Notes under the pieces: generated by a model
The model's database searches: none
Told to the model about the DNA's origin: nothing
What the model saw: the letters and a program-made list of their open reading frames with translations, nothing else
Translations under genes and position numbers: made by a program
Assembly (NCBI RefSeq): GCF_015207285.1
Contig: NZ_JADEXD010000046.1
Location: forward strand, 1 to 41,214
Length of the DNA: 41,214 bases
Source of the DNA: Tychonema sp. LEGE 07203
GTDB lineage: Bacteria; Cyanobacteriota; Cyanobacteriia; Cyanobacteriales; Microcoleaceae
Direction: 5' to 3'
Shown here: piece after piece, positions 21,675 to 22,461 of the stretch
How positions within the stretch are numbered: the stretch's first letter is position 1
Layout of the letters: each line of letters opens with the position of its first letter

Positions 21675-21899
21675 TTGTCTAAGCAAGATTTAATTGAAAT
21701 GGAAGGGACAGTGACGGAATCCCTTCCCAATGCGATGTTTCGCGTTGACCTAGATAATGGGTTTAACGTGCTAGCTCACATTTCCGGCAAGATCCGTCGC
21801 AACTATATCAAGATTTTGCCTGGCGATCGCGTCAAAGTCGAATTAACTCCCTACGACTTGACCAAAGGCAGAATTACCTATCGCCTTCGGAAAAAATAG
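21675..21899 (+). CDS. infA: Translation initiation factor IF-1
   Basis: IF-1 blocks the ribosomal A site during initiation. The 74-residue OB-fold protein reads [20 protein letters not shown], then [20 protein letters not shown], and ends [10 protein letters not shown], close to full identity with the family pattern. The start codon is TTG at 21675, since no ATG or GTG lies at the right place; the upstream GTTGAGG is a weak ribosome binding site. A rare start in an initiation factor gene is notable. rpmJ follows after a 365-bp leader. Confidence 0.96.
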
Positions 21900-21949
21900 G
21901 CTTAGATAAAACTTTCTAAAAACTAATTCTAAGTTTAATTAGAGAGAAT

Positions 21950-21980
21950 TTGGTAAAAAGCTTCAAATTCATGATATAAT
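21950..21980 (+). promoter_or_regulatory. Strong extended -10 promoter upstream of rpmJ
   Basis: A perfect TATAAT lies at 21975-21980, preceded by TGA to give the extended -10 form TGATATAAT. A weak -35-like TTGGTA lies at 21950-21955 with a 19-bp spacer. Transcription would start near 21987, just before the hairpin at 21995-22015. This promoter would drive rpmJ-rpsM-rpsK-rpoA-rplQ separately from the upstream S10/spc part. Confidence 0.65.
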
Positions 21981-21994
21981 GCTACGTTTGTAGT

Positions 21995-22015
21995 GTTGGC
22001 GAGAAGGGCGCCAAC
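21995..22015 (+). promoter_or_regulatory. Hairpin at the 5' end of the predicted rpmJ leader
   Basis: GTTGGCG at 21995-22001 pairs perfectly with CGCCAAC at 22009-22015 around a 7-base loop (AGAAGGG). It would be the first structure of a transcript from the promoter at 21950-21980, possibly a 5'-stabilising stem. No T run follows, so it is not an obvious terminator. Confidence 0.65.
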
Positions 22016-22165
22016 AATCCACCAATGTACTGGGCCAAGTCACTGCTACGCCGTCAAATTATCGATCGCCCACATTTTTGTGCAAGCGAACTTTACCCCA
22101 GCAAGTGGGAGTAGGTGCAAGCGGGGCCCTTCATGAAACAACCCGTACTTTAATACAATTTAATC

Positions 22166-22199
22166 GAGGAGAGGTCTACACCTTGCCCAGCCTCTCCTC
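22166..22199 (+). promoter_or_regulatory. Leader hairpin upstream of rpmJ
   Basis: GAGGAGAGG at 22166-22174 is perfectly complementary to CCTCTCCTC at 22191-22199, with a 16-base loop. The 5' arm resembles a Shine-Dalgarno sequence but no start codon follows it, so a structural role is more likely. Confidence 0.65.
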
Positions 22200-22202
22200 C
22201 CA

Positions 22203-22255
22203 CCGCTCTACAGACCAGCGTGCCTGAGATCCGGTAGAGCGGGGTTCTCCAGGCA
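22203..22255 (+). promoter_or_regulatory. Candidate pseudoknot adjoining the rpmJ ribosome binding site
   Basis: Stem 1 pairs CCGCTCTAC (22203-22211) with GTAGAGCGG (22234-22242), nine perfect pairs. Its loop contains TGCCTG (22221-22226), which is complementary to CAGGCA (22250-22255). The latter overlaps the AGGA Shine-Dalgarno-like motif (22255-22258) before the rpmJ ATG at 22265. The second helix can be extended by three pairs across a one-base bulge. This topology could hide the ribosome binding site. The pairing is directly visible; regulation is inferred. Confidence 0.55.
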
Positions 22256-22264
22256 GGAAGAAAG

Positions 22265-22378
22265 ATGAAAGTTCGAGCATCTGTCAAAAAAATTTGTGAG
22301 AAATGTCGCGTCATCCGCCGTCGCGGTCGAGTGATGGTGATATGCACTAACCCGAAACACAAACAGCGCCAAGGTTAG
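22265..22378 (+). CDS. rpmJ: 50S ribosomal protein L36 (zinc-binding form)
   Basis: This 37-residue protein begins [20 protein letters not shown] and is a textbook L36, a late-assembly zinc-ribbon protein of the large subunit. The zinc ligands are complete: Cys11, Cys14, Cys27 and His32, making it the C+ form. The ATG at 22265 is preceded by AGGAAGAAAG. It is the first gene after the predicted promoter and structured leader and lies 83 bp ahead of rpsM, the usual order. Confidence 0.97.
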
Positions 22379-22461
22379 AAAACAGAAAGAGTGGGAACTG
22401 CACGCAAGTGCTGCCTCATTCAACATTGTAGCCAAACAGGAAAATTAGGGAGACAAAAAGT

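Follow-up and report, generated by a model that had tools for sequence, protein, structure and literature searches.

A HEARO/IscB-type remnant in front of rpmJ in Microcoleus and its retained right end as the probable ribosome-binding module of a ribosomal operon

What is the structured leader in front of the rpmJ-rpsM-rpsK-rpoA-rplQ operon of Tychonema sp. LEGE 07203, and where does it come from? The window, that is the whole stretch of DNA analysed (41,214 nucleotides, contig NZ_JADEXD010000046.1), belongs, as we infer, to the genus Microcoleus. By Microcoleus leaders we mean the rpmJ leaders of 29 genomes of this genus; one of them (L029) is N over most of its length and was scored as a miss wherever letters were needed. 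A preliminary description had seen here a promoter, an early hairpin, two 9-bp helices and a pseudoknot, and had proposed a translation-controlled leader with a protein of the operon as its possible ligand. All of these features are present by letter and both 9-bp helices are kept in the genus, but the early hairpin and the pseudoknot did not hold up. As for the interpretation, the promoter and a structured leader containing the Shine-Dalgarno (SD) sequence remain, whereas the pseudoknot and the autoregulation do not. In our view it is highly probable that a remnant of HEARO, the omega-RNA element of IscB, lies between the 5' UTR and the rpmJ start, and that its right end was kept and would serve as the ribosome-binding module of the operon; more speculatively, its SD might be masked by a loop pairing. 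The features are as follows.

infA, ending at 21899: the gene upstream of the leader.
21972 to 21980, forward strand: extended -10 box TGATATAAT of the host promoter, recognised from its letters, its conservation in the genus and a similar box in relatives without the insertion.
21981 to 22009, forward strand: short ancestral 5' UTR (…GTAGTGTTGGCGAGAAGGGC), the left flank of the insertion; it aligns with GTAGTGTTGCCCAGAAAGGC in G008 and G006.
22010 to 22264, forward strand: HEARO/IscB-type element remnant of 255 bp, immediately 5' of the rpmJ ATGA, recognised from empty sites, left end, HEARO scrap and right end.
22010 to 22023, forward strand: degenerate HEARO left end GCCAACAATCCACC; in alignments HEARO copies begin GTCAACAACCC.
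22084 to 22125, forward strand: scrap of the HEARO RNA 3' end (AAGCGAACTTTACCCC…), found by nhmmer with a HEARO profile built in this analysis.
22159 to 22264, forward strand: right end, made up of hairpin P1, hairpin P2, a conserved TCTCC and the SD, and stopping at ATGA; described by covariance model R1, the structure being found also 3' of HEARO elsewhere.
22166 to 22199, forward strand: hairpin P1, 9 bp (22166-22174/22191-22199) plus U22175-G22190.
22182 to 22187, forward strand: CUUGCC in the P1 loop, complementary to GGCAGG at 22252-22257.
22203 to 22242, forward strand: hairpin P2 with a variable loop, 9 bp (22203-22211/22234-22242).
22255 to 22260, forward strand: SD AGGAAG, supplied by the element and overlapping GGCAGG, assigned from sequence and conservation.
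22265 to 22378, forward strand: rpmJ (L36), first gene of the operon, with its ATGA at the right edge of the element.

The operon's own promoter is supported by conservation. TGNTATAAT is present in 25 of the 29 Microcoleus leaders (three of the others read TATAGT, and L029 is N), and relatives without the insertion have a similar -10 box at the same place. In G008 and G006, which belong to the same family and another genus, …TATAATGCTACGTTTGTAGTGTTGCCCAGAAAGGC joined to ATGAAAGTTCGAGC precedes rpmJ, and the UTR runs directly into the start of the gene (…GTAGTGTTGCCCAGAAAGGC, then ATGAAAG). The window shares this promoter and UTR, and 255 bp separate them from an identical ATGAAAG. An empty site was found in 12 of 12 fetched places from other genera of the family (L114; L320-L330), and since these places were picked because a short leader match began at the rpmJ ATG, which favours empty sites, they are not a random sample. 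Scanning the 12 loci with R1 gave no match at E<=1. The site was filled in all 29 Microcoleus genomes searched, four of which matched the leader in part (G015, N; G018, a further insertion; G019 and G031, divergence). On the simplest reading, a single insertion would have taken place before the sampled Microcoleus genomes diverged. AAAGGC, a weak SD, precedes the rpmJ ATG at the ancestral site.

Outside Microcoleus, the insertion was absent in 11 of 12 named cyanobacterial records, one of which (L158) apparently duplicates L330. In the remaining record, Oscillatoria princeps (L138), rpmJ is preceded by an insertion whose end (around 2207-2300) looks by eye like the right end of a HEARO; R1 scored 16 bits there (E 0.05) and no HEARO was found at that place. 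It may be an independent HEARO-like insertion at the same rpmJ start codon.

At the left boundary of the insertion we found the GTCA(A/G)… left end of an omega-RNA. The HEARO start GTCAACAACCC is intact in 22 of the 29 leaders and degenerate in the window itself (GCCAACAATCC); L026-L028 carry other variants, L029 is N, and the two most divergent leaders (L030 and L031) show no clear left end. The scrap at 22084-22125 matched the HEARO profile with 10.5 bits (nhmmer, E 5e-4 in a 26.6-kb set) and more weakly in five other leaders (E 0.004 to 0.5), and short DNA matches to it occur at the HEARO 3' ends of G047:C5 and G053:C26. The right edge stands directly before ATGA, the remnant ending at 22264 and ATGA beginning at 22265, and the selected relatives provide the empty site in 12 of 12 cases. 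The Rfam HEARO model (RF02033) gave no match in the window at the gathering threshold, nor at E<=5 for 21900-22400, and no ORF of IscB length lies within the 255 bp. As RF02033 does not match and a scrap of the 3' end is what is left of the RNA, we speak of a remnant and not of a member, and the HEARO parentage of the rpmJ copy rests on the 14-nt degenerate left end, the short scrap and the right end. The sequence comparisons as a whole speak strongly for this anatomy and ancestry of the leader.

A second HEARO was noticed in the leader of G018 (L028 1785-2245; 138.7 bits, RNA model matched end to end). It sits between GGAAGAAAG, which holds the SD, and the rpmJ ATG, and its own end, CCGACTTTTTT, is without an SD. 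G018 appears to tolerate the displacement of the rpmJ SD by an SD-less element.

The degree of conservation differed between the parts of the leader. Among 28 leaders, mean identity was highest in the stretch from P2 to the SD (0.975), in the promoter (0.96) and in the P1 part (0.95), followed by the HEARO 3' end (0.88), the left end and the spacer (0.85 each), the P2 loop (0.75) and the HEARO middle (0.74). By these values the right end is kept best: it is conserved to the level of the promoter, whereas the HEARO middle has decayed. Conservation is fair in the spacer and left end too. TCTCCAGGCAGGAA occurs in 29 of 29 leaders and AGGAAGAAAGATGA in 26 of 29, with L028 (G018) reading on into its second element.

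Both 9-bp helices of the preliminary description proved to be real, and a structured leader holding the rpmJ SD is supported: among 20 distinct Microcoleus right ends, 489 of 490 cells of P1, P2 and the CUUGCC/GGCAGG loop pairing are paired, and sliding the partners lowers pairing to 40-59%. Within Microcoleus, both-side changes occurred in 9 cells, compared with a mean of 1.9 after shuffling, and none of 500 shuffles reached this value. Two weaker measures were the number of pairs with a both-side change (3 vs 1.4, reached by 23 of 500 shuffles) and the number of further pair types (10 vs 8.6, reached by 77 of 500). P1 is conserved in the genus and covaries, with 100% of cells paired and two pairs with both-side changes; in P2, which carries TGCCTG (22221-22226) in its loop, 99.4% of cells are paired, one pair changes from CG to AU or GU in five sequences, and the identity of the arms is 0.94 and 0.89, that of the loop 0.75. 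Taken alone, the whole leader does not fold unusually well (z -1.48).

The early hairpin (21995-22015, TTGGCG/CGCCAA) is present in the window; it is exact in 1 of 29 leaders, or in 3 of 29 if G-U pairs are allowed, and it spans the junction of host and insertion, and was rejected as a conserved element. For the pseudoknot that had been suggested between TGCCTG and CAGGCA (22250-22255), conservation of the two words had been named beforehand as the check. TGCCTG was exact in 18 of 29 leaders, 88.4% of 112 cells were paired, no both-side change was seen and only CAGGCA was conserved, so this pairing was rejected as well. CAGGCA can instead pair with the loop of the first hairpin in 29 of 29 leaders. 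This CUUGCC/GGCAGG pairing (duplex -9.9 kcal/mol) can form in 20 of 20 distinct sequences; five of its six pairs are invariant and no covariation was seen within the genus and, the pairing being nearly invariant, the data are compatible with it but do not prove it. In one dispersed copy (L050) it looks broken by eye.

Retained and covarying helices across the genus, together with an SD beside a possible long-range pairing, are what one would look for in an autoregulatory RNA bound by S13, S11, L36 or L17, for which the transposon would merely have been the source. Against this, the same architecture stands before unrelated genes (by eye ftsZ, ndhA, pfk and acpP) and ends IscB elements, as described below, and 23 of the 24 cyanobacterial rpmJ sites inspected outside Microcoleus are without the structure. 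The proposed pseudoknot is not conserved, and no ribosomal leader of Rfam matched: nothing in the window reached the gathering threshold, and at E<=5 the region 21900-22400 gave one chance-level match (Spd-sr07, 18.6 bits, cut-off 55). For lack of such a match an S4-type or other curated ribosomal leader was rejected, and co-occurrence with the genes of the ligand, another feature of autoregulatory leaders, was likewise not found. We consider autoregulation of this kind improbable, and a ribosomal-protein ligand of the leader has no support; a later exaptation of the leader for control is possible.

When the window's own genome was searched with the leader, a second place was found (L002), where about the last 30 bases matched. 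Two similar hairpins precede TCTCCAGGCAGGAAGAAAGATG there, the gene is unrelated, and the upstream gene has a V4R domain. In the family, too, short matches to the last 30 bases of the leader occur elsewhere in many genomes. With R1, built from 14 copies, matches were obtained in at least 19 of 386 cyanobacterial genomes, with at least nine copies in one of them; these whole-phylum searches were samples of 386 and 244 genomes, with strict filters and the best nine candidates per genome. Copies outside the training set reached an E-value of 4e-11 (G047). Removal of three duplicates and one weak match (L086 698-815, 14.1 bits) from the 56 R1 matches left 52 elements. All 52 are followed by (A/G)TGA, a count that is biased because R1 was trained on sequences ending in ATGA, and not every such start opens a long frame. 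The copies precede unrelated genes, by eye ftsZ, ndhA, pfk, acpP and fabH; here and below, the names ftsZ, ndhA, tig, argG, folD, efp and lysS were read by eye from translations and not obtained by a family search. Apart from rpmJ and the V4R copies, 28 of 41 distinct starts in this biased set open a frame of at least 60 codons, and an SD-like word is present in 35 of the 41, of which 25 open such a frame.

P1 is confined to a subfamily (rpmJ, V4R and a few others). In the dispersed copies, the strand just 5' of TTTCC pairs with the strand after TCTCC, and the latter often contains an SD-like word. The mean duplex energy of this outer stem was -9.1, compared with -6.9 (sd 0.37) for shuffled partners (0 of 1000), in a test that ignored kinship and used 24 unique strand pairs from the 29 of 52 elements that were usable, 23 being without the anchor motifs. 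In the window, the P1 form (-48.1) is more stable by 9.5 kcal/mol than the nested alternative (-38.6), and part of the SD stays unpaired in the fold. No Rfam 15 family scored above its cut-off for the right-end structure in the loci scanned, and known riboswitch families were dropped, as none did so on the dispersed copies; a CRISPR-repeat model touched the L033 element (21.6 bits, E 4).

Of the 44 distinct places scanned, which include orthologous copies, 17 have HEARO (RF02033) upstream of the right end on the same strand, and 14 of these score above the Rfam cut-off. In the other 27, no HEARO was detected within the fetched flanks, which are short, so that long elements can be missed. L080, L063 and L064 contain HEARO (cut by the locus edge in L064), an ORF and then the right-end structure. 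As scanned, these ORFs are 423-439 aa long; NCBIfam NF040563 identifies them as IscB (439-479 bits, cut-off 175), and Pfam assigns them RRXRR and HNH domains. The elements extend from GTCAAC across IscB straight into the right-end structure and end at RTGA.

Several details of such elements were also seen. The HEARO and IscB element L080 14-1611 (G052) stops at the ATG of an ORF reading as ftsZ. In L063 1501-1615 and L080 1501-1618 the iscB frame extends up to the right end, and a small hairpin TATGnnnCATA, formed from the last iscB codons, looks conserved in several copies. There are also minimal copies (L089 1026-1172 and L048 554-656), in which the first bases of HEARO seem to be joined to the right end with almost nothing in between. 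Neither of the two HEARO copies in the genome of the window has an R1-type end or an RTGA at the called boundary.

The 27 of 44 places without a detected upstream HEARO would agree with an independent, dispersed riboswitch-like RNA that merely has HEARO nearby. We think this very improbable, because GTCAAC, IscB and the structure form one continuous element that stops at RTGA, because L089 and L048 join the HEARO start to it almost without a gap, and because HEARO copies chosen regardless of structure often end, by eye, in related TTTCC-flanked hairpins at RTGA.

This last point comes from a boundary call made independently of R1, which takes the place where HEARO copies stop resembling each other. 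We compared 118 HEARO loci from among the best-scoring matches, and 108 gave a boundary. RTGA was present within a 22-base window at the called boundary in 91 of the 108 copies; the 17 without it looked mostly like ends inside the element. At many of the called ends a hairpin with TTTCC on either side could be seen by eye. Copies ending at ATGA were followed by an open frame of at least 60 codons in 28 of 49 distinct cases, compared with 155 of 783 for the remaining ATGA sites of these loci (Fisher p 3e-8), and for copies ending at GTGA there was no excess (6 of 35 vs 142 of 540); the frame test is crude, the copies are partly related, and the null includes internal in-frame ATGA. By eye, the frames after HEARO ends include rplR, tig, argG, folD, efp and lysS. 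An SD as a requirement for start-codon sites was rejected, because many HEARO ends without an SD also precede open frames. As Weinberg and colleagues are said to have described in 2009, HEARO inserts before ATGA or GTGA.

In L305 (G022) and L314 (G021), HEARO lies immediately 5' of the first codon of a frame reading as rplR; this ribosomal protein gene also occurs in the window's cluster. G009, G021, G022 and G047 have at least 31 HEARO copies each, and most of the fetched G009 copies, ending at GTGA, are not followed by long open frames.

According to our preferred reading, the comparisons show a HEARO mobile element, either non-autonomous or later deleted, between the 5' UTR and the rpmJ start with its right edge against ATGA. 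Its middle has decayed, and the right end, with two hairpins and a purine-rich SD directly 5' of the ATG, has been retained; it would now replace the separated ancestral UTR as the ribosome-binding module of the operon. The position and conservation of the right end and the weak ancestral SD suggest that it is the working ribosome-binding site of rpmJ. Less firmly, since GGCAGG next to the SD has a possible partner in the CUUGCC of the first hairpin loop (in other members of the family, in a strand flanking the second hairpin), translation of rpmJ might be set by how often this pairing masks the SD; such masking is speculative.

The right end might also have no function for the host, being a DNA hairpin of transposition that has not yet decayed, with rpmJ translated regardless. 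Right-end hairpins are expected in elements of the IS200/IS605 type, in G018 another insertion separates the SD from the ATG, and SD-less ATGA-ending HEARO copies also precede open frames, all of which would fit. A copy that lacks a full HEARO and iscB has nevertheless kept its right end as well conserved as the promoter, with compensatory changes, while its middle has decayed, and we therefore regard the absence of a host function as unlikely, though less so than the two alternatives considered above.

Start codons may themselves be a target of some HEARO/IscB elements. The target-adjacent motif ATGA would be a start codon plus one base, and the guide would be the gene's own 5' UTR. In one subfamily, a right end with a structured SD would keep the separated gene translated; insertion at essential genes would thereby be tolerated and protected, and such ends would become ribosome-binding sites of the host, as at rpmJ throughout Microcoleus. 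We offer this idea tentatively and find it somewhat doubtful. The rpmJ case itself shows how an RNA-guided mobile element from the lineage that gave rise to Cas9 can be taken into the leader of a ribosomal core operon, and it points to a testable explanation for the presence of such elements at the starts of essential genes. It also warns against a tempting reading, for a leader that is conserved and covaries in front of ribosomal genes is not necessarily sensing a ribosomal protein.

The position of HEARO before ATGA or GTGA is already known, whereas neither the structure of the right end nor the fact that a ribosomal operon has kept it turned up in the literature searches. Judged from the openings of abstracts and from passages of PMC8400943 and PMC9755519, these searches yielded no account of this leader or of HEARO/IscB ends acting as ribosome-binding sites.

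With HEARO RNA (RF02033) and the IscB omega-RNA elements, the window copy shares the left end GTCAAC…, the 3' scrap and the right boundary at ATGA, and relatives with the same right end carry a full HEARO and IscB. It differs from them in its length of 255 bp, in the loss of most of HEARO and of iscB, in that its conserved part is the right end, which lies outside the Rfam model, and in being the leader of a ribosomal operon. The alpha-operon leader of E. coli (Alpha_RBS in Rfam) forms a pseudoknot bound by S4. Like it, the Microcoleus leader is a structured RNA with a possible pseudoknot near the SD in front of alpha-operon genes, but the window gives no Rfam match, the leader precedes rpmJ and not rpsM, the operon is without S4, and the origin is a mobile element. 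MITE-like or PATE-like derivatives of IS200/IS605 are short and dispersed, have no transposase and keep both ends. The leader resembles them in all these respects, whereas the right end in the window carries an SD before a start codon and the copy has been kept in all 29 genomes searched of one genus.
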